Source: Panorpa germanica (Eukaryota > Arthropoda > Insecta > Mecoptera > Panorpidae). Taken from it: DNA of 64,000 nt. Positions 951 to 64,000 of this stretch are shown in pieces. The first letter of the stretch is position 1; each line of letters opens with the position of its first letter. Below the pieces are notes generated by a model. The model was not told the DNA's origin, did not search any database, and was given only the letters and a program-made list of their open reading frames with translations. Position numbers and translations under genes: made by a program. The stretch is from the NCBI GenBank assembly GCA_963678705.1, contig OY783208.1:682001-746000 (forward strand). Direction: 5' to 3'.

Positions 951-959
951 ATTGTATTA

Positions 960-1110: not shown

Positions 1111-1139
1111 GTTATTTAGACATTTAAATATACACTTGG

Positions 1140-4070: not shown

Positions 4071-4071
4071 T

Positions 4072-4365: not shown

Positions 4366-4383
4366 AACCTCAAATTAGAACAC

Positions 4384-30911: not shown

Positions 30912-31830
30912 AGTCTTAATTTCTATAAGACTGTGCTATAGATTGATAAAGTGGGTTACTAGAACCTCAAATGTCCAATTATTTATTAATAACTCCTTAT
31001 ATGTTAAGAGATATTAACAATTAAAAAAGTCTCCTTAATAATTAAAGGGATCAACGTTATAAACAAGGAATCTGCGTGTGACGTCACAGATTTAATATAT
31101 TAAATAATATATACAGATGCATTGGTCCATTGATTTAGAAAGAAATAAATCAGGATTTGCTAAATATGAACAAATACATTTATTATTTGATAAATTTAAA
31201 TGAAATAACAAAGTTAGCTCTTATACTGGAAAACAATTAGCAATATTAAAAGCACTGGAAATTAATGAAAATATCAACAATAATAAAATTATAATAATAA
31301 CGGATTCTTTAAGTGTTTTAAAAAATTTAAATTCTAATGATAACAAATCAAATAATGATATTTTGACACGCAAAATTTAGGGGGTGTATTTCAATTTAAT
31401 AAATAAGAATAATACCATAAAATTTATGTGGATACCAGGACATTGTGGAATAAGAGGAAACGAAATTGCGGATAAATTGGCAAAGGAATCAATAAATTTA
31501 GAAATTGAGATGAAAGTGAAATTACCTTCATATGAAATTTTTAATATAATCAAAAAATAAAACTTCAATTTAAGAAACCAAGATTTCATTAACAAAAGTC
31601 AGTTAAAAGGAAGAGATTATTATATGTTACATCCAAATTTAAGTAAGAAGAGATGGTTTAGAAATGAGCCCCGCAAAATGATATCAACTATAATCAGAAT
31701 CAAAAGTAATCATTGTAAAACTCACCTGTCCAGCTCACCTGTACAAAATTAATATTAAATCCGACGATAGATGTCAATGTGGTGAAGAAGGAACTTTGGA
31801 TCATATTATATTTGAATGCATAAATTATAG
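30912..31830 (-). mobile_element. Family A-like end joined to a LINE RNase H fragment
   Basis: 30,912-31,090 resembles the CTTAATTTCTATAA...GTGACGTCACA end of family A. It is followed by the LINE fragment rather than by the family A core. Confidence 0.7.
31115..31830 (+). pseudogene. LINE RNase H domain and zinc knuckle, copy 1
   Basis: Plus-strand translation gives YTGKQLAILKALE, IIIITDSLSVLKNL and WIPGHCGIRGNEIADKLAKE: the E, D and H...D parts of an RNase H domain of I/jockey-type non-LTR elements. A CQCGEEGTLDHIIFEC knuckle follows in another frame. Stops at DKFK* and after KI, plus a frameshift before the knuckle, make it dead. The reverse transcriptase part is absent. Confidence 0.88.
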
Positions 31831-31844
31831 TTTAATAAAATTTC

Positions 31845-32070
31845 CTACCGGGCCTCTTTTATAACCTTAATACACATGCAAAATTTCATTTTTCTATCTC
31901 TTACAAAGACGAGCTGTCGAGTTATACAGCAAAAAGGAGCCCACTCTTTTCTACTTTTTCTAAAATTACGGGCTTCCAGGAAATTCAAGGGAAAATCCGG
32001 GGGCGCCAAAAGTCTTAGAATTTTTTTCTCTACGAAATAGGCAATTTTTTAAATATACACCATATTGAAA
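31845..32070. repeat. Family G repeat
   Basis: Contains AAAATTACGGGCTTCCAGG and TCTCTACGAAATAGGCAATT. Confidence 0.8.
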
Positions 32071-33094
32071 ACCATTTTATTTTTAAATGATTAAAATATA
32101 TACAATAATTTTATGTAATATTTGTATTTAATATATTATGTTTCAATAAATGCTTCATTATTATAATTATTTACATTTTAGATATATATATTTTTATAAT
32201 ATTTAAAGTGACCTAAAGTACGTACGTACAACTGGAATTAGAGCTGAAAATATTATATATATATTTATATATATTAATCTTATTTCTTTGATAGCTATAC
32301 ATTTAATTCGAGTTCCAGATTCTTCCTTACGCACAATTTAAGTAAAATCTTGGTTATGACACGCATTTTTTTACGTAAATATTATGTTTCCAATAATCTT
32401 GTGAAATGCTGAACATAAATCATTAAAATCTTAGAAGAAACCAACATTTTAGTTAAAATAACTTTAGTTAAATAGTAAGAAAAAATCAATTATATTTCAT
32501 TCTAATGTAAAACTAATTGTTATTATTAAATCCTTGGAAATAGGGTGCTTAGAATAGCCTCTATTCCTTATAAATTCACTTACAATACTTTGTTAATGTC
32601 ACCAAATGACTTTTCTATTAATTTCACAATCAATTGCTCTCGAATTATAAAAACTAAACGAAATCTAACAGTGGCCAACATGTTTGTACGTTTTGTCATC
32701 AAGAATGTTGGCCGAGCTTGTCACCAAACCAATATATTCGAGTGTGAATGATTCCTAAATATAAATATTACATTAGTTTACAGATATTTTACGTAATTTA
32801 ATAGCAATTTATATAAATGTGTGTGTTTTTAACCAAGATTTTACGTAACTGTTTTAGTTTTAATTTCTTTCATTGTGTAAAGAAGTTGATTCAAATTTAA
32901 AACCAGTTTTGACCTGTTTATATGATTAAAAAAGAGTGCAAGTGTTGCCCTCCTTTAGCGACGTATTTCCTTAACTCTAAATTAAATTAAATAACAATTA
33001 TTTTATTTAAAAAAAAAAAAATGGACACGTTTTTTGACTGATCATTTAAATAATGCTCGTATATTTATTTGTTTATTCGAAATAACATTGATGA
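32071..33094. other. Intergenic stretch downstream of WASHC2
   Basis: The four-span gene and WASHC2 converge here. Minus-strand AATAAA hexamers near 33,072 and 33,004 and an A run (33,009-33,021) suit the WASHC2 3' end. A 68-codon frame at 32,545 has no recognisable content. Confidence 0.5.
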
Positions 33095-36000
33095 TTATTT
33101 TGATGATTTCCGAGGCATTTTAAAGAGGTCACTGTCATCATCATCACTGTCTCCAAATAATGGTGTAGCTTTTGTTGTTACAGCTTTCGAAGGCGGAGCT
33201 TTTTTAACAACTCGTGATGATGATGTAATGACACTTTTTCCTAATTCACTATCTTTAGGACGATTTTTTTGTTTTTTAACATTAAATAAATCATCATCAT
33301 CATCATCACTAAATAGATGATCATTTTTATTAACTTTTTTTATATTTTTATTAAATATATTTAAGTCATCATCTACTAAATCATTATTTTCTTCTTCCAT
33401 TATTGTTTTATTTAATTTTTTCTCATTTTTCATGAACAATTGATCATCATCATCAAATAGTGGATTTTTGGGATTCGGTTTTGCTTTGTAGTTGTCGAAT
33501 ATATCTTCAGCAGAACCGTCATGCGCTAAAATGGACATTTTTGATAGATTTTCATCAACTTTTGCCTTTTCTTCGGAATGTGTGACATTTCTACTACTGC
33601 TGAATAGCGCTTTGCTCAATAAAGGATCTTGAAATAAGTTATCTTCATTAGTTTCATCAAAAACTCCGTCGAATGTTCGTCTTCCTTTGTCCAAATCGTG
33701 CACAGAAATATTGTTCGCGTTGCTGGAACGAACATTCGATAAACTATTCTCGCTTATTGTCGATTTATTCGTTATCTCACTTGGATCACTGGTTTCTTTC
33801 ATTTTTTCTATTTTTTTGGATGTAGCCATTGAATCTTCTTTGCTATTAATTGTTGCTGGTGAAGTTTCTTCTTCTGCTAGTAAACTATCGTCATGAATTA
33901 ATGATTTTCTGATGGATTCCTGACGGGCTTTTCGTGAAGATGGACGACGTTTTACCTTTATTTTAGCGCGCTCCTAAAAACAAAAAGAAAATGGAATTAC
34001 AATTATTTATCTTTAAATATTTCAATCGTGCAACATTGTAAATTCATTAAAACATGACTTTAATTTTAATAATGTAAATATGACAACAACGCATCGTGAT
34101 TTGTTTATGTTTTCTCTAAAATGTTTCATTTTATAGAAAAATTATTACAATGTGTTAGAGCAGTGCATAAGATTTTTATATGTAACAGAAAGAGACAGCA
34201 ATATTGTTTTAAAAATATTTCTAAAGTAAACAATTGAATTTAGTGTTAGGGTTATGTCGGTGGATGTGTTACAGATAAAGACGAGCTTGAGACACTTTGT
34301 TCAACTGCCTGTTGAAGGAAAGAGATGGATATAGTTTCCAGATCAATCTAACAAAATATTTGAATTTGAAATAAATATTTGATTCGTTTGCAAGTTGAAA
34401 CGTGCTGGTGTGTGGGTGGTGGGTGGACGCTGATAGTGTGGAGGGGGGTGAGGCACTTGTATCAGATTCTTCTATAGACATACAAGCGCCAAATTTGAAA
34501 TCAAAATCGAATTTGATGAGTTTCATTGTTGCGCTTATAACTTTTTTGTTATTAAAGTTACATCAAAAAGTAATTAACAAAAGTTGTAGACAATATTATT
34601 ATCTACAAAAAACTTATTTACGAAATTTTTGTGCGAGCTGTAGTTTTCAAGATAATCACAATTCGGTCTTTGTATTTTAAATTGATGTTAATAAATGTGT
34701 ATTGGCGTGTCTATTTTATTAAATATCTAAATGTTGACGGAGATATAGCAATTAAAAGTTTGAATTGTAGTTTTAGCGCTAGAAAGAGTCTACCATATTT
34801 GTATGACGTGAAATGCATTTTAACGTCAGTTATTTGTTGAGTAGGTCAGTGCTGTGGTAATGTTTTGTAGCTGTTGGTAGTCAAATAATCAAGTCAAGTC
34901 AAAGAATAATAAGTTTTCATTTTATTTAACCCTGCTAAGGCAGACATAATATTGAAATTTGATTGTTCCTTGAAATAGCTGTAAATAATATTTGATATTT
35001 TGATATATAAATACATATAGCAGAGATTTATGAGCTGTAAGGTTGGCAGCGATTGTGATGTCACATGCATTTGGAATGTTGTACAACGTTGAATCCCTTT
35101 AATAATTAAAGAGACAAAATGACTTTTTTAATTGTTAATATCTCTTAACATATAACGAGTTCTAGTAACCCACTTTATCAATAATTAAGAAATTAAGAAA
35201 TAGGACACAAGCCCATTATTTAAAAATTCAAGTTTTATTACTTTCGTGCCAAACCAATAGTACCTCGATTCATAACTAGATGTCACTTATCATATAGGTG
35301 CGCGCTAAGTTTAAATTTGAAACAGTTTCAACATTGAAGACTTGGCTTACCTTAATAGCGCTATTATGCAAAGTAGTATGTGATGGACTCGTTATTTCCG
35401 CTTGTTCTCCACTTCCGGTCGTTACATGATCAGAACTTAACGTTTTGTCACTAGTTGTGGTTTCACTACTGTCACTTAAAATATCATTTTCTAAATGTTT
35501 CACTTTTAATTTATCGTTATCACTTACTAAAGAATCAATTACAGGGTTTACGTTGGCTAAAACATCTTTTTTTGGAGGTTTAGACCCAGGAAGTAATGCA
35601 GAAATATTTATATTTAAATTTTTTGATATTTCATTTGTTTTTCCTGACGATATGACAATTTGTTCATCATTTTTCTCTTTAACATTTATATTTTTAAATA
35701 AGTTCTCATCTAGCTTTTCTAAATCATCTTTATCATCACGGAATCTACTGGCAAATAAATCATCATCACTGTCATTAAAAAGATTTCGATTTCTTGTTAA
35801 TTTGTAATCAAAATCTAAATCCAAAGGCGGTTCGTTATCATATAGAGTGACACTTCGATTCGCAGCTGATGACGCTGATGATGTTTGACTACTGATGATG
35901 TTTTCCAAGTCGTCATTAACATCCACACTCTCAAAGATATCACTCGGAGGTGGTTCATCATCGAAGAAACTTAAATTACTTGATTTAGATACTTTTTTAT

Positions 36001-39000
36001 CTATTTTACTAGAAAACAATGATTCAGAATCATCATTTTTACTAATAACATCAATTTCGGGCGGTCTATCATCAAACAGTCTAGCTGGTGTTACATCACT
36101 AGGTTCCTTTATTGTAAAATCAATCTCCGGAGGACTGTCATCAAAAACACTAATTGTTTTATCAGTGTCTTGTGGTTTCACATCGAAATTGAAATCATCG
36201 TCATCATCATCATCAAATAAACCGAATGATTTCTTATTTTGAACTTCCTTTTCATTTGTTAAGGGGCTATTTTCTTTATTTATTAAATCTAACTCGGGGG
36301 GGCTCTCTTTAAACAAGTTTACTGGTTTTGGAATTTCTTCATTGGGTATTTTTTCAGTGGGTAATGATTTCACATCATTAGAATCATCATTAAATAAACT
36401 AGCAGTCTTTTTCGGAATGGCACCCGTCTCTGTAGGCTTTGTACTAAATAATTCGTCGTTCTTTTTGCTTTTAATTAAATCTCCAAATAAATCATCATCT
36501 TCGTCATCGTCATCAAATAGGCTGATCTTCTTTTTACCTGTGTTTCTTTTATTATCAGAAAATCCGAAATCTATTGGTGGTTCATCGTCGAAGAGGCTGA
36601 CATTCTTCGTTTTTACCGGCTCCGTTTTGACATCATTTACCACAACTGGTTTTTGAGCTCTGTTAAAAAGGTCACCATCCTCACCAAAAAGAACTGCATT
36701 CTTTTTACTAGTAGCTTTGTTATTTTTAACATTTTCTTGAGGCTTTACGAAATCTACATCATCCAAATCATCAAAAATACTTGATTTCGTTTTATCATTA
36801 ATAGATTTAATGAAATCATTATTTTCATCACCAAAAATATTTGTTTTCTTTTTAATATCTTTCTCTAAGGCATCAGTTTTATCATTTTTGACAGGCTTAT
36901 TAGCTACTGGTTTAATTAAATCATCAACAACATCATTAAATAGATTCACTTTATCATTTTTAACAGATTTGGTTCCAAATGATTGCAGAAAATCATCATC
37001 TTCTTCATCATCATCAAAAATAATAGTTTTTCTTTTAATTTCTTTAGCTAAGTTATCAATTGCAACATTTTTGACAGGTTTACTACTAGTAGGTTTGATA
37101 ATTTCGTCATTATCATCAAACATATTCATTTTCCTCTTATTTTCTTTTGTAAAATCATTTTTGTTAAGTTTAGGTTGTAGAAAATCAATATCATCATCAT
37201 CCTCACTGAAAAGATTGCTTTTCTTTTTAATTTCATTGGTTAAATCATCAATTTTAGAATTCTTAACAGGTTTAGTACTGGTTGGTTTGATGATTTCCTC
37301 ATCATCACTAAACAAACTTGACTTTTTCTTAAGCTCTTTTGTGATATCATCAATCTTTTCATTCTTGACAGGCCTACCACTATTTGGCTTTATATAATCA
37401 TCATCTTTTGGCGAACTTGTTGACGCTAAATTATCAAAATCATCAGGCGGAATATCATCAAACAAATTAACAATTTTAGGTTTCTGCGGTTCTTTAAATA
37501 TACCCCCTTTCGGCTTCGTTTCTATTTTCGATGACACTTTAAAATCATCTTCAGAATCATCGTCATCAAACAAACTATCCTTTTGTTTTCTAGGTTTCTT
37601 ATAATCATCAAATAAGTCATCTAATATTGGAGGACCATCATTAAATAACATGGAGTAGTTATCTTTTGGTTTTGGTTTCGACGCAATGATGTTAGAGAAC
37701 AAGTCATCTTCGTCGCTAAATAATCCAGACTCTGTCGTAGCTAATAATTTGTTAATCTTCTGGATCGACTCCTGCTGCGTCGCTGAGTTATTCGAAACAT
37801 TATCATTAGATTTTGTGTCAAAAAGTTTGGAGGAACCGGAAAATATCTCACCCTCTTCTTCTGAGCCATCTCCGAATAAATCACCATGCGCTGTAATTAA
37901 AACTTGACGTTAAATATTGAAAATATAAAATAAACTAGAATTTATCCAATAAAATAATTCGTAATTACATTTCATATTTAATTCTATTTTTAACACAATA
38001 TTTTCAATTTATGTGTTATTTGACCAACTTTATTTGAAAATTTGGGATTTTTTTTTTCGATTCGTAAATAAGTTACCAAGGTTAGCCTATATACAAAATT
38101 TCAACTTTCTAGCACAATTTTTACTCTCGGTAAATACTGCCTCCGTGCCCCCAAATAAAATTTTGAAATTTTGAATTTTTTTTTATTAATAATATACCAA
38201 ATTATTCTAGAATCCAGAATATGAACTTTCTCCAAAGTTCCCTACCGGGCCCCCGAATTTCTTCAACCCCCTCTTTGTCAATTTTTGAATTTCTAATTTT
38301 TGAGAAATGTCAGAATTGAATACCTTAATACACATGCAAAATTTCAACTTTCTATCTTTTACGAATTAAAAGTAATACAGCAAAAAAGGGATCACTTTTT
38401 TCCAGTTTTTCCAAAATTACGGGTTTCTAGGAAATTCAGGGAAAAATTCGGGGACGCCAAAAGTCTTAAAAAAATTTTCTCTACGAAATAGGCAATTTTC
38501 AAAAATATTGAGGAAGCCATTTTCGAGCTACCATACAAAATTCAGTACCAAACATATAAGAATAGAAACATACACTTGGAACATTATAATATAGGATATA
38601 ACAATTATCTTACATTTAGGAGGGGCATCCTTTTCTGCACTGTTTGGGGTGCCTGTGTTGTACTGCAGGGAGTCAGATCTCCATGAAGACGATCCTATAG
38701 TGTTAGCAGCATGTGGAGATTGGCTTAAAGACTGTGAAGATGCTATCGATAAGGTGTCGGATCTGCTGGAATCGATTATACCTTCCTCGCTTTCTGTTTC
38801 ACTGGAGATTTTATCAAATTTGAAGAAATCGCTTGATCCGATAAGGCACGGCAATGGACGATCAACGTAGATGTCTTTAGCACGGAGATTGAACCTTTAA
38901 ACAGAAATAAAAATATATGTGGAGACATAAGGTTTCAACATTTTTAATTTATTTATATGAATGTACAACATATTAAATTTATTGTGTGAAAATTTGAAGT

Positions 39001-41207
39001 CGATTGGAGTAAAACTGTCGGAGATATAGAGTTTTAAGTCATCACCTCTCTGGTCTGATTTCGTCTTTTTGGTTGAAACTTTTAAACGCGTTTTTTTCAC
39101 ACTTAGCTTTTTCAGAGTCTAGCTCAAAATCTACTGCACCGATCCGCAATGAAATTTTGCACACTCTTTCTTTACATAAATGCCGAGGTAACGCTGTCGA
39201 GTTACTTAACAGGGTGTCCTGCAGAAACTTATCAACTAATGAAATCATTTTGGTTTTTTGATTTCAAATAATCCAGTGATGAGTTATGAGTTACTTTTTT
39301 TGTGACGTCACCGGAGATTCGCTGTCAATGGCTCATTTCTTGATATTTATTTATGAAAATTTCACAAAGTATTCTTTAAATGTTATTTTATCATGTAGTA
39401 ATTATAGAAATAATTATATATTAACTGTGTCCTCAGAAAACATTATCGAAAATGTCCTTCTTTTTATCGTTTTGATCTGGAAATGGACAAAATGAATAAT
39501 TTAATAACCTGTTAGCTCCGTCTCCTACATCTTGACTGATTGTTACTGGTTCAAAATGAGTTTCCAAAAGGTCTAAACCAAGGAGGACAGCTTCCTTAGC
39601 GACAGCAACAGGATCAGCTTTAGGCTGCAACGAAATTAAATCATGATTATATAAAAACAAATTGAAAATAAAGAATTTATGTTATAGATATTCGAATTAT
39701 AGTTCAAATTACGAGAGTTCGGCGGCGACGCATACTTAAAAGAAGTTGTGGAGTATAAACTGTCCATATAATGTGTATAGAAACGAATAAGATCGTATTA
39801 TAGATTTATACCGCTTTTATAACTTGTTTTAAATATGAGTTGCCAACGAACCATCGTGATTTAGACTATACCTCAATTTTGGGAGGCTCTATTGTTTTAT
39901 TTTGAACGAGTTCTTCGATGTCTTCTTCGTATACTCGACTTTCTACGAATTGGGAATGTTGCAGAGCTAAAAATCTTGAAACAAACATAATTAATATGAA
40001 TTAATTAATATTTAAAGTGTGTATGCATTTAAATTTGACCAGTTTTTTAAGAGTTGCCATGTTACCTAATATTGTGATTGTATTTAGTCTGCATATGTAT
40101 ATAAAAAACTAAAAAGTATTGAGTACAATCTCCAAAAAACATGTTTTAATATTTAACTACACTTTGAACAAATTAGAATTCGCGCTAGTCGGTAAAACAG
40201 TAAACTAAAAATGTTTTCCCAACTTCCCAACAGATGGCTAAAAATAAAAGGATTAATTATGTAATTAATAAACCTATTTGTTGCGTTTCCTAAGGCAATC
40301 TGTGTATAATCCAATTGACTCATCATATCATCTAAATTTGTCTTCGTTTTTTTGCTTCTTTCTCCTAAATTCTGCAACAAGAAAAAACATTATATCAATA
40401 TAACAAACCTTCTAGAAAAATGGTTGTATTCTTAGCTAATAATATTTAATAAGAAAAAAGTTTTATTTACTTCTGAAAATTTTTGTAGATGAAGCAAAAG
40501 TTTGGAGTCTCCTTGTAGGGTCCAATTATTTGAATGTTCACGAATTTGGCCCGTTGTCCAAGGGACACCATCTCCAGGACCTTCCTAAAACAATAAAATA
40601 AAGAAACCACAGTTTAAGAATTGAGAAATATCACATTTTAATAATTAGCTATTTCAAATCATTATAGTAGCAAAATTATGTGTACTGCTTTAGGAAACAA
40701 TTAATAAATCATATAAACAATATTCAAATACCAAATACAACTATTTAGGTAGGTTTAAATTGTTTTTACGTGTCCAAAGAAGTAAATATTTAAGTTTGGG
40801 AAACTTTTGGCGTCTTAGCAATCTCAGGAACTTAAAAAAGAATATGTTTAAAAGATTGTGTTCCCCTAATTAACCAAATTTAAGTTAATTATTAACATAT
40901 TAGTATATGATGAATAAGTTTTAAACAAACATAATATTTACGTAGATTCTGTGACTCATTTGAGCGGTATATGTAATAGAATCATAATAAATAAATAATG
41001 TTGTGTAAATATTCATTTCTTTTGGTATATAATTATCTTTATAACTATACTATATCTAAAACTATCTCGTTGAAGGATATATAATGAGATAATAATGTAT
41101 ATATATATTAGAATTATATATCATAATATTAGAGGTTAGGTAATACATTAACATAAAAGAATATATTAAAACAATAAGTAACAGTATACAAAACAAAAGC
41201 TTACCAT
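33095..41207 (-). CDS. WASHC2: WASH complex subunit 2 (FAM21), complete
   Basis: This is the large tail subunit of the endosomal WASH actin-nucleation complex. It links the complex to retromer and to capping protein. Coding exons (minus strand): 41,205-41,207 (the ATG only), 40,471-40,584, 40,274-40,371, 39,872-39,974, 39,509-39,624, 38,614-38,894, 35,351-37,890, 33,095-33,973. They join in one frame of 4,134 nt (1,377 aa). The N-terminal head matches FAM21: the PWTTGQIREHSNNW stretch, then FVESRVYEEDIEE, then AKDIYVDRPLPCLIGS. The tail is acidic and holds more than 25 LFa-type motifs (LFDD, LFSD, LFND and variants), which bind retromer VPS35 in the human protein. The last exon opens with a basic KVKRRPSSRKAR segment (about residue 1,090) that matches the capping-protein-interacting region of FAM21. 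The final LFa motifs run to the C-terminus. Introns carry families A, B, C and G. The start shares a 285-bp divergent promoter region with UFC1. Confidence 0.95.
33997..34680 (-). repeat. Family C element
   Basis: In the last WASHC2 intron, 23 bp from the splice acceptor side of exon 8. Shows a deletion of about 65 bp near 34,110 relative to 9,255-10,000. Confidence 0.8.
34681..35217 (+). mobile_element. Family A element, left terminus missing
   Basis: Joins family C directly at AAATTGATGTTAATAAATG. Right end AGGACACAAGCCCATT intact. Confidence 0.88.
38310..38560. repeat. Family G repeat
   Basis: In WASHC2 intron 6. Contains AAAATTACGGGTTTCTAGG and CTCTACGAAATAGGCAATTT. Confidence 0.8.
38930..39475 (-). 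repeat. Family B element
   Basis: Fills most of WASHC2 intron 5. Carries the minus frame 39,042-39,248 and GTGACGTCACCGGAG. Confidence 0.82.
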
Positions 41208-41492
41208 ATTTAAATAATACACAAAACAATTATAATAAAATATCTATATATATCAAAACTAGAAAATATAAAAACTTGTTAACAAAACCTAATTATTTGA
41301 CAGATAATAAATGACATTCCTAATCGGTGCGTTCGTAAACTACGAAGTGTTACGAAAATGTACGAAGTTAAATGATCAGTGATTGGTTGGTGTTTAACAT
41401 CAGAGAAATGTCAAAGCTATTCTACCACGTCACTTGACTGGTTTATTAAATGTCAATTTATTATTTTTATAAAATTAATTTAATTAATTAAA
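41208..41492. promoter_or_regulatory. Divergent promoter region between WASHC2 and UFC1
   Basis: The two start codons point away from each other with 285 bp between them, so both promoters and 5' untranslated regions must lie here, although WASHC2 may have more upstream sequence. The stretch holds repeated CTACGAAG/TACGAAG words around 41,335-41,370 and a CACGTCACTTGAC site near 41,428. No repeat family intrudes. Promoter function is inferred from position only. Confidence 0.6.
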
Positions 41493-43627: not shown

Positions 43628-43963
43628 ATAAACAATTTCTAAAAACTTTTTAATTTGTTAACAAATAGAATGAAAATATTTGATTTATTTCTTTTATTAT
43701 TTTTATAGAAATATTATTTTATTTTATAAGCAAGCTTAAATTATATTGATTAAGAAAAAGAACCTTAAATATATATCACTGGTTTTTGTTAAGTTCAACT
43801 GTATATAGTAATTAAAATTATTAATTAACAAATAAAATATAAATTTAAAGTAAATATTCGTCTAGTTTTGATGGCTGGATAAAAAATACACTTTTGCTAA
43901 ATATTTAGAGCCTTATTAATAATAAGTGAACGTATTTTGAATATTATATTTAGCTTTCTAATA
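43628..43963. other. 3' region of UFC1
   Basis: AT-rich, with several AATAAA-type hexamers (for example near 43,831). No gene. Confidence 0.45.
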
Positions 43964-45345: not shown

Positions 45346-45543
45346 ATCAACAATGGTTAATACTCTGACTTCAAGATTATTACCATTATTAAGACCATTA
45401 ACTAGAAAATATTTTATTAGATAGTTTATATTAAATAGTTAGAACAATATAATAGGTATAATAAAAACAAAATATTAAGCTTTGATTTCAATTATTGTAG
45501 CCACCAAACAGTGAACGCTTTTTTAAGGGATGTTTTTTTATAA

Positions 45544-51502: not shown

Positions 51503-54307
51503 TCAAAGATCATGCTTTTTAGATTTCTTCTTTTTCTTTTTAGGTTTACTGGGCTCGTCTTCATTATTTACTACATTTTCCTCCTTCGGTTTCTCTAAAT
51601 TTTCTTCATTTTCTTCAATTTCAGCTTTTCTTTTCTTACTTTTTTTAACAACTATATCTTGCTCTATTACTTTATCTGAATCTTTACTTTTTTTCTTCTT
51701 TTTCTTTTTAGGTTCATCTTCAGAAATATTTACAACAGGTATTTCAACTTCCAGTTCTTCGGCTTTACGTTTTTTCTTCTTTTTCTGCTTTTCACTCTCT
51801 TCTGGTTTATTGTTTACTTGTTCAACATCTTTCTTTGTTTTAGATTCATCAACATTTAGATCTACATCTTCTTCACAACTTTTCTTTGATTTTTTCTTTT
51901 TCTTTTTAGATTTTTTAATATTATCTTCTTCTACGATTGCACCAGCTTCATTATCTAATACATTACTGGAGTCTTCGTCTTTGGTTTCCATTTTGAAACC
52001 ACAAAAACCATTTTCAACATTTTCCTGTTCGTTTTCTTTCACAGAACAAAGGACACCATTGGAACCAAGTTTGTATTTACTTTTTCCATACGATGCTGGC
52101 ATTTTTGATTTAAAGTAATCAGCTATACTTTGAGACGATTCTGTGGTTGGAATTCCGAAAGAAAGTCCACCAGGTCTGCAAAAATAAGATAAGGAATTAA
52201 TAAATAATGAATTTAATAAGGTTATATTATTTGTAGTATGTTAAATTTTACTTTTCTTGCGGTTGGTCAAATTTAACAACTCCATAATTCAATTTCGGGG
52301 CTTCTACAGGTTCAGGAGTTGCTAATGTCTTTTTCCCAAATATATTTGCTAAGTCCTTTGCACTGTATTTGGAAATATCTTTGCCTCTTGTAAATTTGTG
52401 ATAACTGAAACAAAAATTGATAATGTTATCAACAGAACAAATGAATCTACTCAATTCAGTTTAAATCTGCAATAGTCCACTATAAAATTGTGTGTACACC
52501 CGTTACAGTATCTAAACTTATCAGCCACCATTTTAAAGGTTTTCTAACGTTCTACAACTTTCATTAAAACATTTTTCCGATAAAATCAATACTTTACGTA
52601 TATTTATTAAATTAAAAATATCTTAACATATTTTTGTTATTAGTAAAGTTTCAAACCAGGAAGTATAGAAGCATGTAGAAGTCGATTTTTATGATTTTTT
52701 TGCAGCTAAATGAAAGCTTCTTTCTTATTTCTGTTTAAACATCTTCTTAGGGCACGTCTTCACCTTCTTAAAAGTATTTTTGGAACGTAAGAATATTAAT
52801 TATTACCTGAGATATATCCATACGCAAGTCACCTTGTTTTTCAGGCAATTATACTATATTATCTATTCTAGAAATCGCATTATTTTTCGATTCACTAATT
52901 ATCTATTAATTAATAATTATAAGAGAATATTTTTGCACCACGTTGGATTGTTATTCACAAAGAGTGTGTGAGCAAAATTTGAGCCCGATAGCTTATCAGA
53001 AACAAGCCTAAATTAAGCACTAAGACATTTACGTTAGAATCTGCTAAAGTCCACTATAAATTTGCTAAAGATTGGTTTGACACACTTAAATTTGTGTTGT
53101 GAACAATATCTTAAATTCTAGAAATGTATATTACATGTACTGATAAAGTTAACTATCAGGATCTCAAATGTGATTTGTTTTAAACAATTAAAGGACCAGG
53201 ATAATTAAAGGGACAAAACTTTGCAAATATTTAAAGTAAAAGTAATAAAGATATTTAATTTCTCCACAGTATTTCGAAAATTGTAAGCCTGTAGCACAAT
53301 CTGTAGCTACATTATAAAAGAAAATAGGATTCTTTTTCTAAGGGGATGATTTCCAAACAACGGTTGCTCCGATTCATGTGATTTTTGTAACACAAATTCA
53401 CAACTTGATAATCTAGAAGTTTTTGTTGAATTAATGGTTTTATTTCAGATGTACTATGTCTTCTAGGTGCCCTACAAATTTAAGAAGAATATGATTCTTC
53501 ATTCTTCGGCGTTTTTACAATTAAAAACACATATTTCGGTACCAGAAAACATGTATCTTAACAGAAACACCTACTGAAATTGATTCTCCGTTCTATTTCA
53601 ACTTTCAGAGGGGTGATACAACCCTTTATTATGGTTTTTATGATACTTACTGTACTCTAGCTTTAGACTTTTTGGATTTTTCTTCCAAGGAAACTCCGCT
53701 AATTTCCTTTTTGGATACAGAAGTTAAAGATTCGCTTTGTTGAAAACGTGTAAAACCAAATCCTGCTGTTTTAGGTTCTTCCTCCTTTTCAACACTATCA
53801 TTTGAATTTTCGCTGCCTTCTAAACTTTTTAACAAAGAATTAAATTGGGTCTCATGCTCGATCCATTGGTCCCCATTATCTTTAAAGCCCATCCCTTAAA
53901 AAAAAGACAAATTAAGAAACCTACTGTAAACATGATATAAAAAATGGTTCAAAATGTTATTTACCTTTGCTGTCATTCTTGTAGGCTACTTTAATATGCT
54001 CTGTCGTTCCATTTAAATTAGCCCCAAGACCTTTTCCACTAGACCAACCCATTTTTTCCAATATTTTTTGACCAAATTTACTGGAGTCTACAAAATTTAA
54101 GGTTAGGTTTTTTTGACATATACTTTAAAACAATTTGTACTGATTATTTTGTAAATATAAAGAAAGAATACTGTGTATTATATGTTTTTTAATTAAGTAA
54201 ACTATTTATATGTAATTAAATATGTGTAATTTACCTTGAGACCAATCTTTACCACGCGGATTTAAAGACCATTTCGTCTTACGACGAGGCTCTGCTAACA
54301 TAGCCAT
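51503..54307 (-). CDS. PINX1: PINX1: G-patch protein, PIN2/TERF1-interacting telomerase inhibitor 1
   Basis: PINX1 is a nucleolar G-patch protein. In yeast its counterpart activates the helicase Prp43 in ribosomal RNA processing; in mammals it also inhibits telomerase. Exons (minus strand): 54,235-54,307; 53,965-54,087; 53,651-53,894; 52,252-52,404; 51,503-52,175, joining in one frame of 1,266 nt (421 aa). The start MAMLAEPRRKTKWSLNPRG matches the family N-terminus. The G-patch (residues about 25-70) shows FGQKILEKMGWSSGKGLGA. Downstream, the WIEHETQFNSLL, SLEEKSKKSKARVHYHKFTRGKD and YFKSKM blocks align with human PINX1 in order. The C-terminal third is Lys-rich with repeated KKKKKKSK clusters, as in human, although longer. 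The largest intron (52,405-53,650) contains dispersed repeat pieces. The gene is head-to-head with the DDHD phospholipase gene. Confidence 0.95.
52497..52585. repeat. Two-copy repeat in the PINX1 intron
   Basis: Inverted match of 24,060-24,150 (AACTTATCAGCCACCATTTT). Confidence 0.75.
53113..53195. repeat. Two-copy repeat in the PINX1 intron
   Basis: Inverted match of 6,735-6,805. Confidence 0.8.
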
Positions 54308-55157
54308 TTTTATATAAAATTAAAGATAATTATTAAAATATAATAATAAATTAATTTATATAAATTCACTATGTTTTAAAGAACCACTCAGAATCACTTT
54401 TAAAACTTTGTTAAACACTTTAGAAGGAGGTTAGGTGACAAATAAAATATAAAGTGAAGTTATCATTGAACAAATACCAAGCTTGTGTTTAATAAAAGGT
54501 TTGTTTCCACAATTGGTTTGTTTCTTTAACTAATTAAAAATTAATTACTTATTAGAATTAATTAATTAAATAAATAATTCTAAGAAACTGGTTAAATATA
54601 AATAAATGAAAGGAACCTTGAAGCTGATTTTACTTTTACAATAAAAGAATTAGTGCAAATAATGCAAGAATTTCAATGACACAGTCTTACCAATATATAA
54701 GTATAGTTAGATATTTTATATTACAAAAATTACACGTGTGTTTTACATTTTTTCAATATTTTCCATTAAATTATATATTAATTAAATATTTAACATAATG
54801 TGTTACATAATATATGAGTCATTTTAAATAAATTTATAATAATATAATATATAAAAAGTGTTCTATTGTTAAAAAATAATAGTTTTTTGTATAGATTATT
54901 CTGCGCCTGTCAGATTTTAATAACGTATATGTGGTGTAATGTCAAAAATGACAATTAATATTTCTGTGTGCAATACAAATGACAAGCAAATGACTAATTA
55001 ATACTTAAAACTAATTATAATCAAAAGATTATTAATATATGTTTTTAAAAGTATTATTTAAATATAATTGTGTTGATTTATTAATAATGTTTTTATATAA
55101 ATTTTGACATAAATTTAGTGTTGTGATTTGTTCAATTAGTCAATAGTTTATTTAAAA
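54308..55157. promoter_or_regulatory. Divergent intergenic region between PINX1 and the DDHD phospholipase gene
   Basis: 850 bp separate the two start codons, which face away from each other. The sequence is AT-rich with runs of TTAATTAA-type words and holds no element of the families listed here. Both promoters are expected in it; no specific factor site could be identified. Confidence 0.5.
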
Positions 55158-58100
55158 ATGAATTATCAAAAATTATTATCTAAATTTAATTATATGAATA
55201 CCGATACTGTTGAAGATGATTATTTTGAATCAGAAATAGATTTAGATAGTGTTGATAAAAATCCAGAGGTTGAAAATAAACGTGTACAATATGAAATATC
55301 TCAACAAAAATTAAAAAACGGTGAAGAAATTTTAATTGTTAAAAATAATGATAGTTCAAGAGATATAAAGGACGAACTTTGTGAAGAGGGTGCTATTCTT
55401 GAAGAGCCTATTCAAGGACTTCGCCCTGAAGAGGTTAGAATTAAAAATAATTATAAAAAACTAGTTTTAGTTCTTGTTTCTATGTAGTTTTTGCATTTCA
55501 TTTTTGTTATAATACATTTAGAATAGAACAAGGTCATTTTTATGATGTCACTAAAACCACTAGCTTTTTATTTTATCTGCATATAATTAGTTTTTACTTA
55601 ATTATAATTCATTATCACTACAACTACTACTTTAATTATCTAATACACTTCCCGAAAATGTTTGATTAACTAAAAATTTTATTAATTTTTGTCGAAATAT
55701 TTATAACCTTACTTACCACTTCAATTTTTGACAGAATTTGATAAAATTTAAGTATGTTGTTAATATAAGTATCCTTAATTTAGTGACCAAGTTTTTAAAG
55801 TTTTGACCAGCTGTAAAGCGAGATATTAATAATAAAAGTGTATATATATAACCTACAAAGTATAAAAAAGGGAGGTCATTATTTTAACATATATCTCAAG
55901 AACGGTTCTTCAGATTTTATTAAAATAACTTAAATATTATAGAGGAATAAATAACGAAACTTTTGACTGTTTTTTAGATTGTTTGATAAGTTAGTAAAAA
56001 AGTTATAAAGGTTTAAAGTTGTAATGGGTTTGTGTCCTATGTCTTAATTTCTATAAAAGTGTACTACATATTGATAAAGTGGGTTACTAGAACTCCTTAT
56101 ATGTTAGGAGATATTAACAATTAAAAAAGTCATTTTGTCTCTTTAATTATTAAAGGGATTCAACTTTGTACACATTCCAAATACATGTGACATCACAACC
56201 GCTGCCAACCTTACAGCTCATAAATCTCTGCTATATGTATTTATATATCAAAATATCAAATATTATTTACAGCTGTTTCAAGGAACAATAAAGTTTCAAT
56301 ATTATGTCTGCCTTAGCAGGGTTAAATAAAATGAAAACTTATTATATTTTGACTTGACCAACAGCTGCAAAACATTACACCTAATCAACAAATAACTGAC
56401 CTATCCCACTACATGTTACGTCATAAATATGGCCGACCATTTCTAGCGCTAAAACTACAATTCAAACTTTTAATTGTTATATCTCCGTCAATATTTAGAT
56501 ATTTAATAAAATAGACACGCCAATACACATTTATTAATATTAATTTCAATCAACAATTGAAAAATCGACCACTAAAAAATGAGGACACAAGCCCATTGAT
56601 GAAATTGACAGCCCCTGTATATATCTTTCCCGGTAAGAAATCGTATAAATGCATTTACTTAAAGTTGCGAAATTATTGGATTTATTTTTGTAGGTTTTCT
56701 GTCTGACTTATATCATATTTCACCAGTTTAAACCCAGGAAAATCGTTTAGAAAGTAGATTCCTTAAATTAAATAATGTTAAGACGTTAACAGAGATAAGA
56801 AATTGTGTTGTGGGCTTGTGTCCTCATTTTTTAGTGGTCGATTTTTCAATTGTTGATTGAAATTGATGTTAATAAATGTGTATTGGCGTGTCTATTTTAT
56901 TAAATATCTAAATGTTGACGGAGATATAGCAATTAAAAGTTTGAATTGTAGTTTTAGCGCTAGAAATGATCGGCCATATTTGTATGACGTGAAATGCATT
57001 TTAACGTCAAGTCAAGTCAGACATGATATTGAAATTTTATTGTTCCTTGAAATAGCTGTAAATAATATTTGATATTTTGATATATAAATACATATAGCAG
57101 AGATTTATAAGCTGTAAGGTTGGCAGCGGTTGTGATGTCACATGCATTTGGAATGTGTACAACGTTGAATCCCTTTAATAATTAAAGACTAACATATAAG
57201 GAGTTCTAGTAACCCACTTTATCAATATGTAGTACACTTATATAGAAATTAAGACATAGGACACAAGCCCATTGATAAAGTTGGCTATCATAACCTCAAA
57301 TATAATATCCAATTATTTTTATTCAATTCGCGATATTGTGCAAAAGAGATGCAGAATTAAACGTCAAAGCATCGACCCATAATGTTTCAATATAATGTCG
57401 TGACATAAAACGAAAAATACATTACATTAATGATTTATTCTCTTTTTAACAGGTGCGGTGGTTTTACAAGTCCATCCAGGATAAGACATGGCTCGAATTT
57501 TCGGGCTACGATTCCCTAAGAATAGAAAAAAAATACCGGGACCTATACAAACATCATTCCAATTCAATACTAGAACACAATGTAGATTTTCCCGAATTAG
57601 AAAATGGTATAGATGCCACAGATATAAATAACATAGAAATAAAATTAGAAAATTTAGAAAATAGAAATTCACAAGCAATATTAACAAATAATATAAAATT
57701 GAATTCAGTATTTGAAAGTTCAGATTTACCAACTTATAAAATAGAAACAAATTTTAATGAAATTTTATCAAAAAATAATAAAATACCAAAATTAGAAATA
57801 AATTTAAAAAATTCTAAAAAATTGCCTTCATCTGTGGATGACAATAATAGAAAAAATGATGAAGAAAGTGTAATTGTTAATAATACAGAAAAAATAGTTG
57901 TTAATGGTAAAATGGACCTTAATGGCCACAATGTTGGCAACAATGGGGTAAGCTTGGAAGAAGAAGATGTCTTTGATGACGCCGAGGAGAAAATTTCAGC
58001 CGAACATATCATCATCAATGAAAGCTACAACAGTAAAAAGAATAGCTTGGATAGCAACAGCTCCAAAGAAGATAAATTTGATCCCACCAGGAGAATTGTA

Positions 58101-61100
58101 GTGAGAGGGGGTGAGTATTCATTAATTGAGGGGCGCTGGGGGGCCTGTGCTTGTGTCCTATGCCTTAATTTCAACAAATCCGTACCATACATTGATAAAA
58201 ATAGCTTCCAGAACCTCAAATGTCTAATTATATTATATTTAAATAATTCACTAATTAATTTTGAATCACTTAACAAAAATTTAGTATCAACAGAAAAAGT
58301 TTTAATCACATCTAATTGGATTTAGATCTTTCTAAACTATAATTTATGCATTCAAATATAACATGATCCAAAGTTCCTTCTTCACCACATTGACATCTAT
58401 CGTCGGATTTAATATTAATTTTGTACAGGTGAGCTGGACAGGTGAGTTTTACAATGATTACTTTTGATTCTGATTATAGTTGATATCATTTTGCGGGGCT
58501 CATTTCTAAACCATCTTTTCTTACTTAAATTTGGATGTAACATATAATAATCTCTTCCTTTTAACTGACTTTTGTTAATGAAATCTTGGTTTCTCAAATT
58601 GAAGTTTCATTTTTTGATTATATAAATTTCATATGAAGGTAATTTCACTTTGATCTCAATTTCCAAATTTATTGATTCCTTTGCCAATTTATCCGCAATT
58701 TCGTTTCCTCTTATTCCACAATGTCCTGGTATCCACATAAATTTTATGGTATTATTCTTATTTATTAAATTGAAATACACCCCCTTAATTTTGCGTGTCA
58801 AAATATCATTATTTGATTTGTAATCATTAGAATTTAAATTTTTTAAAACACTTAAAGAATCCGTTATTATTATAACTTTATTACTGTTGATATTTTCATT
58901 AATTTCCAGTGCTTTTAATATTGCTAATTGTTCTCCAGTATAAGAGCTAACTTTGTTATTTCATTTAAATTTATCAAATAATAAATGTATGTGTTCATAT
59001 TTAGCAAATCCTGCTTTATTTCTTTCTCAATCAATGGACCAATGCATCTGTATATATTATTTAATTAATTAAATTTGTGATGTCACATGCATTTGGAATG
59101 TGTACAACGTTGAATCCCTTTAATAATTAAAGAGACAAAATGACTTTTTTAATTGTTAATATCTCCTAACAAATAATTGGACATTTGAGGTTCTAGTAAC
59201 CCACTTTATCTTAAACTTAAATAAAATCCGCAAATTAAAATAAGAAATTGACCTTTTTCAGGCATGTACGAAGTGGACTTGATAAATCTAACTTGCGAGT
59301 CAATCTATTGGCCAGGAGAGCAGTGTTTCATAACCAGGTAAATATATTTCACTCACTGTTAAAGCTAGCGCACACTATACTATTAAAATGATATTTATTT
59401 TCTGTTTTTCAGGGGGTTATTTTTTTACGATGGATCTTGGCAACCCTTAGAAATGAAACCAGCTCATTTAATGGAAGAAAAACATCTAGAATTATTTGGT
59501 GGAAAAATTCACTCTGATTATTGCACTGGAGGTACTATAAAAACTGCAACAGGTGATACTTACTTTGATAAGCTTTAACTAATATTAATGGGCTTGTGTC
59601 CTCATTTTTTAGTGTTCGATTTTTCAATTGATGTTAATAAATGTGTATTGGCGTGTCTATTTTATTAAATATCTAAATATTGACGGAGATATAGCAATTA
59701 AAAGTTTGAATTGTAGTTTTAGCGCTAGAAATGGTCGGCCATATTTATGACGTAACATGTTTTGTAGCTGTTGGTAGTCCTGTGTATCTAGTACTCAAAG
59801 AATAATAAGTTTTTATTTTATTTAACCCTGCTAAGGCAGACATAATATTGAAATTTGATTGTTCCTTGAAATAGCTGTAAATAATATTTGATATTTTGAT
59901 ATATAAATACATATAGCAGAGATTTATGAGCTGTAAGGTTGGCAGCGATTGTGATGTCACTTTTTTAATTGTTAATATCTCCTAACATTTAAGGAGTTCT
60001 AGTAACCCACTTTATCAATATGTAGTACACTTTTATAGAAATTAAGACATAGGACACAAGCCCATCATTAACTACTGATTAGGTTGATTTTTAAGTAATT
60101 TATATTACTGTTTCTTTTTTTAGTGATACACACAGAAAATTTCACAGAATATCACGTTGCTTGGCTTTCTCCGAATGAAATTTATTTGTACTCCGATAAT
60201 GCACCAAGTAAAATAGTAAGGAGTGTTACGCATAGGCTGGGCTTCCAAAAATGTAAGTTTATTTCAAGAAACGCCTGTTACACGCAACCACTTTAACTCT
60301 TGTGTTAAAATATTAACCAGGTTTTTTGTGTTTAAATCGTTTTATGTAAGTAACTATAAACGCGAATCAAAATCTAAAGCTGCAAATAGTTAGATGAATA
60401 ACGTATCTACATTTTAAGCTTTCTTCCACTGAGATGTTTGAACAAATACATTTATTATTTGATAAATTTAAATGAAGTAACAAAGTTAGCTCTTATACTG
60501 GAGAACAATTAGCAATATTAAAAGCACTGGAAATTAATGAAAATATCAACAATAATAAAATTATAATAATAACGGATTCTTTAAGTGTTTTAAAAAATTT
60601 AAATTCTAATGATAACAAATCAAATAATGATATTTTGACACGCAAAATTAAGGGGGTGTATTTCAATTTAATAAATAAAAATAATACCATAAAATTTATG
60701 TGGGTACCAGGACATTGTGGAATAAGAGGAAACGAAATTGCGGATAAATTGACAAAGGAATCAATAAATTTGGAAATTGAGATGAAAGTGAAATTACCTT
60801 CATATGAAATTTTTAATATAATCAAAAAATTAAACTTCAATTTGAGAAACCAAGATTTCATTAACAAAAGTCAGTTAAAAGGAAGAGATTATTATATGTT
60901 ACATCCAAATTTAAGTAAGAAGAGATGGTTTAGAAATGAGTCCCGCAAAATGATATCAACTATAATCAGAATCAAAAGTAATCATTGTAAAACTCACCTG
61001 TCCAGCTCACCTGTACAAAATTAATATTAAATCCGACGATAGATGTCAATGTGGTGAAGAAGGAACTTTGGATCATATTATATTTGAATGCATAAATTAT

Positions 61101-64000
61101 AGTTTAGAAAGATCTAAATTCAATAGTGAAATATTAGATGTGATTAAAACTTTTACTGTTAATACTAAATGTTTGTTAAGTAATTCAAAATTAATTAGTG
61201 AATTATTTAAATATTTAGAAATTCATTTTCAAAACTAATTTTTGTGGTACCAACTCATTAAAAGTCAGTGGAAGAAAGCTTAAAATGTAGATACGTTATT
61301 CATCTAACTAATTGCAGCTTTAGATTTTGATTCGCGTTTATAGTTACTTACATAAAACGATTTAAACATAAAAAAACATGGATTTAACCTGCTCTATAGT
61401 ATCGCCATTTATATTTCGCGAGTCAAAAATGGCCAAATGTGTATAATTATTAATGCATCTATATTTTTAGCAACTGGTTACAGACTTAAAAGGGGCTACA
61501 GACTTCTGGCTAACGACTCAGATGAGCCACAGGGTGTCTCGCATCTAGTGTTTGTAATTCATGGGATTGGGCAGAAAATGGACACTGGAAGAATCATCAG
61601 AAATACGAGCGCGTAGGTTTATTTAATATTTTACTAATACAGAAATGATCATGACAACTACATTGAAAAATTCACATTTTAAATAGCTATATCTCGATAA
61701 CGACGTGGTCAATAATGTTCATTTTTCTTTATGAGGTCTGTGACTACGATTTTTATAACATATCAAATTTTCATGAAGTTCCTGCATTACGTTTGGAATT
61801 TAAACCAACAAATGTGTATTCTCCATAAGAGCCCGTGTTCTAATTACTAATAAAAACGGCGTGGTCATTTTTAAACTAATTAGGCTCGTATGATTTGTAT
61901 TTAATTACAGAATAATTAACTACCTTAAAGATATTTAATTATGTTATGTAATCAAAGTACAATTCTTTTAATCATCCTATTTTTTACATTGTTTTAGCAT
62001 TTTCGGTTCTTTACCCCTGCAACTTATACTACAAATATAACACCTAATTATTACTATATTATTTTCAGGTTTAGAGAATGTGTGGATTGGCTTAAGAATA
62101 AATATTTCCCTTCAGCAAATCAAAGAGCAGAATTTTTTCCAGTTGAATGGCGGTCCAGTCTAAAATTAGACAGTGGTAATTATCTTTAAAGGAAATCCCA
62201 ATAGGAACAGGAAAAATAAAGAGAAAAATTGTATTATCTTCGTTTTCTATAAAACTGTGCTATATATTGATAGAGCTGGCTACTAGGTCCAATAACTCTT
62301 TGTATTTCAGGAGATATTAACAATTAAAAGTCATTTTGTCTTAAGAAAGATCCTTAAGGAGAGTGACGGATGATTGTGATGATATTTTTACGTAAAATGT
62401 CAATGATTTTAGTGATTTCTTCGTTCCACATACTATTTGTATTATTTGAATCGAAAGCTTGATGTTTTCTGAACCATATTCAATTGAAATAATAATTTTC
62501 TCCATTAGATACTTACATGAAATTTTCAATCAAATGCACAAGTTCATGAAATTCGGAATTTATGAATTTATTAATGGGCTTGTGTCCTCATTTTTTAGTG
62601 GTCGATTTTTCAATTGTTATTGATGTTAATAAATGTGTATTGGCGTGTCTATTTTATTAAATATCTAAATGTTGACGGAGATATAGCAATTAAAAGTTTG
62701 AATTGTAGTTTTAGCGCTAGAAATGGTCGGCCATATTTGTATGACGTGAAATGCATTTTAATGTCAGTTATTTGTTGAGTAGGTCAGTGCAGTGGTAATG
62801 TTTTGTAGCTGTTGGTAGTCAAATAATCAAGTCAAATCAAAGAATAATAAGTTTTTATTTTATTTAACCCTGCTAAGGCAGACATAATATTGAAATTTGA
62901 TTGTTCCTTGAAATAGCTGTGAATAGTATTTGATATTTTGATATATAAATACATATAGCAGAGATTTATGAGCTGTAAGGTTGTGATGTAACATGCACTT
63001 GGAATGTGTACAACGTTGAATCCCTTTAATAATTAAAGAGACAAAATGATTTTTTTAATTGTTAATATCTCTTAACATATAAGGAGTTCTAGTAACCCAC
63101 TTTATCAATATGTAGTACAGTTTTATAGAAATTAAGACATAGGACACAAGCCTATTGTTAAATATGGCGGATCTAGTTTTCAATTTAAATATTTCTGTTA
63201 CTATTGGGGCACCTTTAATTTTATAAATATCCAAAGAGATTTAATAGAGTTGTGTTAATTTGTTCTGTGTTCTAGATATGGTTGATGCTATCACTCCACA
63301 TAATGTTATGAGTATTCGGCATCTTCTAAATTGCAGTGCTATGGACATTATGTATTACACCAGCCCGCTGTATGGCATGGAGGTAAAACTTATTAAGAAA
63401 TTTTGACACATTTGACGCAGGAACGATCGCTAATGTTTTTATAATATGTAGAGAAACGAATAAGAAAAAACTCCATCATATTTCCAATTAAAAAAGTCAC
63501 ATTTTAAGGAAATAATCGAAGAAAATCTTTTTTCTTACGATGAGCATCTTAAAAAATTAAATATATATATTTATTTATGTTGTTTATACGTAGAAAAAGT
63601 TTTGCGGTGGTAAATTTGAACATACAAACCCTAACCGACCTATGTTGAAACGCTAACCGACGTTTTGTGATGTAACAATTGTCATTACTTTTGAAAAACT
63701 TAGAATCATTCAAATATTGTCGTGTAAAGAAAATTAAAGCAAGCGTTATTCGTTTTTTTATAAAATATATTGAAGTTGAGCTACTTTTGATCGTTTCTTC
63801 ATCAATGTAAGAAAGTAATATTCCTAAATTCGGAAATTGAAGGAAGAAAGTATTTTTTGTATGAATATATTCCAACAGCCCCTGAAGCTTATGTGATATA
63901 TCTAACACTTCTTGTTCCAGGTCCAAAGAGGTTTAACAGAGGAACTAAATCGACTGTATTCAATGTTTTTACTACGTAATCCTAATTTTAAAGGTCCTGT
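55158..64000 (+). CDS. DDHD1: DDHD-domain phospholipase A1 (PA-PLA1, DDHD1 type), 5' part, runs off the window
   Basis: Intracellular phospholipase A1 that prefers phosphatidic acid. Exons seen: 55,158-55,433; 57,453-58,110; 59,262-59,337; 59,413-59,552; 60,124-60,252; 61,471-61,612; 62,069-62,175; 63,276-63,382; 63,921 to the window end. They join in frame (about 571 aa so far). Exon 1 is acidic and ends PEE; exon 2 opens VRWFYK and continues SGYDSLRIEKKYRDL, the WWE-like N-terminal block of the family, then an Asn-rich linker (about residues 150-300). Later blocks match DDHD1: IYWPGEQCFITRGLFFYDGSW, HLVFVIHGIGQKMD (residues 451-464), FFPVEWRSSL, DAITP and SAMDIMYYTSPLYG. The catalytic GxSxG serine and the DDHD domain must lie beyond the window. 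Introns 1, 2, 4 and 7 carry five family A copies, intron 5 a family I element and intron 6 a family F copy. Confidence 0.94.
56023..56597 (-). mobile_element. Family A element in DDHD1 intron 1
   Basis: Left terminus ATGGGTTTGTGTCCTATG, right terminus GAGGACACAAGCCCAT. Short subtype with CATGTTACGTCATAAAT. Confidence 0.92.
56813..57272 (+). mobile_element. Family A element in DDHD1 intron 1
   Basis: Both termini present, about 130 bp missing internally. TTG flanks it on both sides if the inverted repeat is taken as TGGGC...GCCCA. Confidence 0.92.
57272..57425. repeat. Family H repeat, shortened
   Basis: Directly abuts the family A end, as at 18,212. Ends about 27 bp before the acceptor of exon 2. 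Confidence 0.78.
58145..59217 (+). mobile_element. Family A-like ends carrying a LINE RNase H fragment (DDHD1 intron 2)
   Basis: Left: GCTTGTGTCCTATGCCTTAA and ACATTGATAAAAATAGC. Right: GTGATGTCACATGCATTTGG through TAACCCACTTTATC, all family A sequence. The interior is the LINE fragment. It begins 35 bp after the exon 2 donor. Confidence 0.75.
58240..59060 (-). pseudogene. LINE RNase H domain and zinc knuckle, copy 2
   Basis: The minus strand shows the same DSLSVLKNL, WIPGHCGIRGNEIADKLAKE and HIIFEC blocks as the other two copies, with the same stop after DKFK and the same frameshift before the knuckle. Confidence 0.88.
59588..60064 (+). mobile_element. Family A element in DDHD1 intron 4
   Basis: Begins ATGGGCTTGTGTCCTC, ends AGGACACAAGCCCAT. 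Short subtype, with part of the CATGCATTTGGAATG region missing. Confidence 0.92.
60319..61437. mobile_element. Family I element, long form, carrying the LINE fragment (DDHD1 intron 5)
   Basis: Arms at about 60,319-60,435 and 61,240-61,437 are inverted copies (for example TAGATGAATAACGTATCTAC against GTAGATACGTTATTCATCTA) and match the arms of 27,763-28,322. The right arm is the longer. The LINE fragment fills the middle. Confidence 0.82.
60437..61238 (+). pseudogene. LINE RNase H domain and zinc knuckle, copy 3 (least damaged)
   Basis: Best copy: after the shared stop at DKFK* it reads YTGEQLAILKALE, TDSLSVLKNL and WVPGHCGIRGNEIADKLTKE in one frame to about 61,024. A shift then leads to CQCGEEGTLDHIIFEC and ELFKYLEIHFQN-stop. 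The RNase H D/E/H/D positions are recognisable; the first Asp region is lost. Confidence 0.9.
61676..61880. repeat. Family F repeat in DDHD1 intron 6
   Basis: Contains ATCTCGATAACGACGTGG and AAAAACGGCGTGGTCATTTT; longest match to the UFC1 intron copy. Confidence 0.85.
62385..62573. repeat. Shared flank next to a family A end (DDHD1 intron 7)
   Basis: Inverted match of 5,401-5,590; touches the left terminus of the following family A copy. Confidence 0.85.
62574..63157 (+). mobile_element. Family A element, nearly full length, in DDHD1 intron 7
   Basis: Begins ATGGGCTTGTGTCCTC and ends GGACACAAGCCTAT. Keeps all inner segments of the long subtype. Confidence 0.92.

Follow-up and report, generated by a model that had tools for sequence, protein, structure and literature searches.

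A protein-dead LINE lineage of Panorpa germanica whose core was found on one chromosome, and its contacts with two inverted-repeat families

How does a piece of a long interspersed nuclear element (LINE) that can no longer be translated intact come to lie, with the same lesions, in three places within one short stretch of DNA? The question is raised by a 64,000-nucleotide stretch of the Panorpa germanica genome (the window, C5:682001-746000 in a 464-Mb assembly of 249 contigs), which contains three copies of a LINE fragment situated inside or beside the arms of two unrelated inverted-repeat families, A and I. The initial annotation of the window proposed that DNA elements had captured and multiplied the fragment, and that it had moved from one family to the other. 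Comparison across the genome places the window copies in a lineage of 46 aligned copies, which was already dead and yet kept multiplying, and whose lesioned core was found only on contig C5. The lineage was probably mobilized in trans by an intact LINE, with uptake of its pieces by families A and I as a secondary process.

The dead lineage and its intact parent

The three window copies are closely similar to one another by blastn within the window, with 98.5% identity over 668 bp between copies 1 and 3, 96.0% over 776 bp between copies 2 and 3, and 93.3% over 899 bp (E 0), including a family A arm, between copies 1 and 2. All three contain the same TGA stop after the DKFK residues and the same 7-bp insertion before the zinc knuckle, as the initial annotation had recognized from the stop and the frameshift. 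A further 4-bp insertion near the start of the RNase H region is common to copies 1 and 2, copy 3 being too short to reach the site. The RNase H part of the proposed RNase H and zinc-knuckle remnant is borne out by matches of the open pieces to PF00075 (E 2e-11 in copy 3 and 2e-12 in copy 2), whereas the knuckle is represented only by a weak zf-RVT match (0.077), below the cut-off.

The intact parent LINE, which the initial annotation had suggested looking for, was found by a tblastn search with the copy-3 RNase H frame as query, in which the best 150 of 4660 candidates were scored. The scored rows are spread over 23 contigs besides C5, and 13 of the 150 lie in an open frame of 1251 aa. Two of these, L043 on C6 and L044 on C12, are 99.94% identical over 5200 bp, which together with the 1251-aa frames indicates that an intact LINE is still present, very young and recently active. 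The parent is at least 5.2 kb long and contains two open reading frames (ORFs), of which ORF1 (442 aa) has no Pfam match at E 0.01. ORF2 of L043 matches PF14529 (2.6e-17), PF03372 (5.1e-9), PF00078 (1.9e-35) and PF00075 (1.3e-15), giving the endonuclease, reverse transcriptase and RNase H domains that identify a LINE. Coordinates 1-5200 of this intact reference were used for placing all copies.

The lesioned set comprises 43 fetched copies and the three window copies, with loci fetched twice used once. Within it, L014 and L042, and likewise L056 and L057, have common flanks, each pair being probably a duplicate of one insertion. Twenty control copies (15 off C5 and five on C5) were taken from tblastn rows below rank 58. 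The 7-bp insertion is present in 45 of the 46 lesioned copies (the remaining one, L021, is deleted at the site), the TGA stop in 43 of the 44 that cover its site, and the 4-bp insertion in 31 of 34. No control has any of the lesions, the numbers of controls covering the 7-bp, TGA and 4-bp sites being 20, 18 and 15, respectively. In a tree of 67 rows, which is otherwise poorly resolved, the 46 lesioned copies fall on one side of a branch and the 21 others on the opposite side, with support of 92/91. The mean distance is 2.5% within the lesioned lineage and 4.7% to the intact parent.

The order of the lesions, and copying at each stage, can be read from three intermediates, one of which (L061) has the 7-bp insertion alone, while the other two (L051 and L060) have the 7-bp insertion and the stop. 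The lineage state is found at 6/20 diagnostic sites in L061, 12/19 in L051 and 17/18 in L060. An origin of these intermediates as mosaics, by recombination or template switching, was considered and rejected, since parental and lineage states alternate along them and do not form two blocks. Thus, an already-dead lineage kept multiplying while it added lesions, with the 7-bp insertion followed by the stop and then by the 4-bp insertion. The earlier proposal that the death of the fragment preceded its multiplication is upheld by the stepwise lesions shared across the 46-copy lineage.

Ends of the copies and uptake by families A and I

All 46 lesioned copies are 5'-truncated, at 37 different points between parent positions 3548 and 4381. 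The LINE 3' end (parent 5165 or beyond) is reached by 27 of the 46 and by 15 of the 20 controls (Fisher p 0.27), and tails vary between lesioned copies, which as a group combine a common 3' end with variable 5' ends. Target duplications, scored as 9 bp or more beside the ends against a background of random pairings, are present in 5/27 lesioned copies, compared with 3.5% at random, and in 3/12 controls, compared with 1.5% at random, which is a thin signal. All three intermediates have one, and among the 3'-end-reaching copies without A or I at either end there are four of 16 (L037, L051, L060 and L061). A CAGGCG motif that recurs beside some copies was tried as a common end and rejected because its positions are inconsistent. 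The ends suggest that the lesioned copies spread by retroposition in its main features, and, since such copies cannot make proteins, the proteins for copying were presumably supplied by an intact relative. The scattered 5' points, the 27 copies at the LINE 3' end and the varying tails are what reverse transcription from the 3' end would leave, and they speak, with the resemblance of the controls to the lesioned copies in their 3' ends, against the alternative that the lineage was copied at the DNA level.

In the window, copy 3 lies between two family I arms of 111 nt each that are 98% complementary, as had been annotated. The corresponding statement that the two other copies lie within A-like ends holds for copy 2, which has an A arm and an inverted A-like arm opposite, and in part for copy 1, which has an A arm on its 5' side only. 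On its 3' side, copy 1 breaks at parent position 4981 into other sequence that partly recurs in the window. A further repeat family lies directly past this broken end and is repeated elsewhere in the window (positions 31864-32000, 38322-38451 and 1006-1058). Family A itself is present in the window in some dozen copies or more, with the ends ATGGGCTTGTGTCC/GGACACAAGCCCAT and, by eye, no clear target duplication.

Across the lineage, family I is found at both LINE ends in three of the 46 copies, family A at both ends in four and at one end in 14, and 25 copies have neither family at either end, of which 16 reach the LINE 3' end. In the surroundings of the 43 fetched lesioned copies, family A accounts for about 19% of the sequence, or 188 bases per non-LINE kb, as against 161 bases per non-LINE kb around the five controls on C5 and 50 around the 15 others. 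Given this high density, some contacts with family A are expected without capture. Around L021 (C5:3.288 Mb), about 30 bp of family A sequence is duplicated on both sides of the lesioned copy.

The I composite is genuine. Copy 3 and two further copies (L034 and L038) have the same LINE/I junctions in different outer flanks, the left junction of L038 differing by a few letters, and genome-wide the right LINE/I junction is matched exactly at three places on C5 (348, 497 and 743 kb), so that the three I composites lie within 400 kb. A fourth match, with two mismatches and situated on C14, probably represents an I element without LINE sequence. None of the three I composites has complete arms, one or both of the outer arms being cut in each, at different points, a picture unlike that of clean transposition. 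For the left A junction of copies 1 and 2, exact matches number five genome-wide and lie without exception on C5, three of them at further places. The LINE limits differ between the A and I pieces, at parent 4260 and 4321 on the left and at 5089 and 5097 on the right, respectively, which makes separate captures a simpler explanation than transfer between the families. Most likely, A and I took up LINE pieces secondarily and in separate events, a process that is ordinary in itself.

The initial annotation was accurate in placing LINE pieces inside I arms and beside A arms, as the three and five exact junction matches illustrate. Its expectation that all copies would lie inside A or I ends does not hold for the 25 copies with neither family, and the view that DNA elements multiplied the piece is not supported. 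Nor is the proposed movement between families, given the different ends of the A and I pieces; separate uptake from an abundant dead lineage explains both composites. Copies with LINE 3' ends and target duplications outside the two families, which had been named as evidence against capture, were largely found, the 3' end being reached in 16 of 25 and duplications being present in four of these 16.

Table 1. Positions in the window of the LINE copies, the lesions of copy 1, and the family A and I sequences.
Feature	Position	Strand	Remarks
Copy 1, lesioned LINE piece	31102..31834	+	Parent 4260-4981; RNase H and start of knuckle
Copy 2, lesioned LINE piece	58235..59062	-	Parent 4260-5089
Copy 3, lesioned LINE piece	60439..61222	+	Parent 4321-5097
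Copy 1 lesion, 4-bp insertion relative to intact parent	31123..31126	+	Approximate
Copy 1 lesion, TGA stop	31201..31203	+	TTA in parent
Copy 1 lesion, 7-bp insertion	31723..31729	+	Approximate; frameshift before knuckle
Family A arm, 5' side of copy 1	30914..31101	+	
Family A arm, 5' side of copy 2	59063..59210	-	Junction identical to that of copy 1
A-like arm, 3' side of copy 2	58146..58234	+	Inverted; 76% to A
Family I arm, left of copy 3	60322..60432	+	
Family I arm, right of copy 3	61265..61375	-	
Family I element without LINE	27762..28324	+	Reference
Family A element without LINE	59588..60065	+	Reference

Distribution of the lesioned core

Contig C5 is chromosome-sized and makes up 5.3% of the genome. 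An exact 69-nt pattern across the 7-bp insertion matches the genome at 44 places, every one of them on C5, with 33 at 0.45-5.87 Mb, one at 17.9 Mb and 10 at 23.2-24.76 Mb. Reversed, the pattern gives no match. Among the 150 scored tblastn candidates, rows 1-58 are all on C5. A shorter pattern, allowing up to two mismatches, has 169 matches in the genome, and among the matches listed (100) all are exact and all are on C5. Within the limits of these searches, C5 is the one contig on which the lesioned core was found, for the most part in its outer regions.

Two other causes of this distribution were considered and rejected. Against a bias of the search engine towards C5 stands the same engine having placed family I on 13 contigs besides C5 (best 40 candidates scored) and the tblastn rows on 23 others. 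Against contamination, C5 also contains copies of the LINE native to this genome that are free of the lesions, including one with an 823-aa open frame at 5.5 Mb. For the family A element of the window, the best 40 of 3451 candidates all fall on C5 apart from three places, one each on C6, C8 and C19. Viral contigs yielded no relative, and a literature search, judged by titles and abstract starts, found no paper about a LINE lineage confined to one chromosome.

The repeat content of C5 is itself uneven. In a small sample of random 1.5-kb stretches, 10 on C5 and 10 elsewhere, sequence in common with the window amounts to 206-917 bases in six of those on C5 (at 1.4-8.6 and 22.2 Mb) and is absent from the other four (at 11-18 Mb), while off C5 it amounts to 216 and 173 bases in two of the 10. 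Repeats of the window look much denser in the outer regions of C5 (0-9 and 20-24.8 Mb) than in its middle or at most of the ten places sampled elsewhere. At C5 2.22-2.39 Mb, ten lesioned LINE rows are spaced at about 10-50 kb and include two repeated scores, suggesting an array formed by segmental duplication.

A short piece of the lineage is more widely distributed. A 29-nt pattern across the left A/LINE junction, with the 4-bp lesion inside it, matches at 23 more places when one mismatch is allowed, and 22 of these sequences are mutually identical. The eleven on contigs of known length, namely C1, C2 (two), C3, C5 (two), C6 (two), C9, C18 and C19, are all at most about 180 kb from a contig end, seven being within 50 kb; five others are on C7, C15, C17 and C21 (two), and seven on C89, C100, C123, C154, C217, C221 and C239. 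These places are absent from the best 150 of 4660 tblastn rows, and they may lack a similar RNase H core. The matches look as if they belonged to a chromosome-end repeat in which a short lineage piece is embedded.

Explanations and comparison with known systems

The favored explanation, to which a probability of about 0.6 is given, is that a dead LINE lineage was mobilized in trans by an intact LINE, that uptake by A and I was secondary, and that a block of C5 has had a separate history. The window copies would then belong to a dead lineage derived from a LINE that persists in intact form, and this lineage, as the intermediates show, gained the 7-bp insertion, the stop and the 4-bp insertion in turn, being copied on after each. 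Copying would involve target-primed reverse transcription of dead transcripts by the proteins of the intact LINE acting in trans, as suggested by the common 3' ends, the scattered 5' truncation and some target duplications. Family A and I elements would later have enclosed or captured pieces of the abundant lineage in separate events, and the I composite was copied after its capture, so that three now lie within 400 kb of one another. The most likely reason for the concentration on C5 would be that its outer regions have evolved separately from the remaining genome, for example as a block with low recombination, with sex linkage or of introgressed origin.

Several observations weigh against this explanation. 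Target duplications are present in only 2/24 lesioned copies other than the intermediates, and 19 of the 46 lesioned copies are without the LINE 3' end, a situation that DNA-level copying fits equally; given the thin duplication signal and these 19 copies, part of the lineage may have been copied at the DNA level. Insertions on all chromosomes are what one would expect of retroposons, and of reverse transcription in trans, whereas the core was seen on C5 only. The placement by the looser pattern covers the 100 listed of 169 matches, and that by tblastn the best 150 of 4660. Finally, since the 29-nt piece, 4-bp lesion included, also turns up close to the ends of several other chromosomes, the lineage is not wholly confined. 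It is unlikely that a protein-dead lineage retroposed for a long time with its core remaining on a single chromosome during all three lesion stages, and that a piece of it entered a homogeneous chromosome-end repeat. If this is nevertheless what happened, trans-mobilized LINE RNA may be usable locally, or blocks of chromosomes may keep private retroposon histories.

The main rival, a minority prospect that deserves tentative consideration, is local copying of DNA, in which a few LINE insertions on C5 would have been followed by segmental duplication, template switching or subtelomere-like exchange in the repeat-dense outer parts. This would explain the confinement to C5 directly, and would be in keeping with the ten rows and two repeated scores at 2.22-2.39 Mb, the paired rows whose scores match or almost match near 3.05, 3.44, 21.9/22.1 and 24.6 Mb, the long outer flanks that A composites have in common, the different outer points at which the three I composites are cut, the scarcity of target duplications outside the intermediates, the 19 copies without the LINE 3' end, and the homogeneous junction piece near chromosome ends. 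The retroposition-type ends described above are the evidence on the opposite side. Local DNA copying could also act together with the processes of the favored explanation. Very improbable is a chromosome-limited form of retroposition, in which dead, untranslated transcripts are reverse transcribed near their origin, such that the lineage stays on its own chromosome. It would unite retroposition-type ends with a core that stayed confined as one lesion followed another, but the core lies at both far ends of C5, other trans-mobilized sequences such as SINEs (short interspersed nuclear elements) and processed pseudogenes spread genome-wide, and we know of no mechanism for local use of retroposon transcripts. 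Least probable of all is capture and multiplication of the piece by a DNA element with passage between A and I, for which the common lesions, the threefold I composite and the recurrence of the copy 1 and 2 A junction at three more places on C5 can be cited, and which is largely refuted by the many copies outside both families; the different ends of the A and I pieces also weigh against it.

The favored explanation of trans-mobilization by an intact LINE has precedents in HAL1, RIME/NARTc and SIDER, which are likewise protein-dead LINE derivatives that keep the 3' end of their partner and multiply. The present lineage differs in that all 46 copies are 5'-truncated at scattered points, its core was found on one chromosome, and its lesion steps are readable. 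The I composite and the copy-2 A composite, with LINE sequence between inverted arms, resemble Pack-type DNA transposons and miniature inverted-repeat transposable elements (MITEs). They differ in their small numbers, three I composites having been found, with outer arms cut variously and no clean target duplication seen, and in that capture appears secondary to the LINE lineage's own spread. While uptake by A and I is ordinary, confinement to one chromosome is unusual and unexpected. A core on one chromosome, beside a widespread intact LINE and a widespread family I, would mark either a block with its own past, be it sex-linked, introgressed or a supergene, or the reuse of RNA or DNA locally, and the stepwise lesions would provide relative dates for that history of C5. 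A comparable situation is the P haplotype of the Formica supergene, in which repeats are enriched in a low-recombination block, that is, in part of one chromosome (PMC13251583). Enrichment is what is described there, whereas here the core of one lesioned lineage was found on C5 only.

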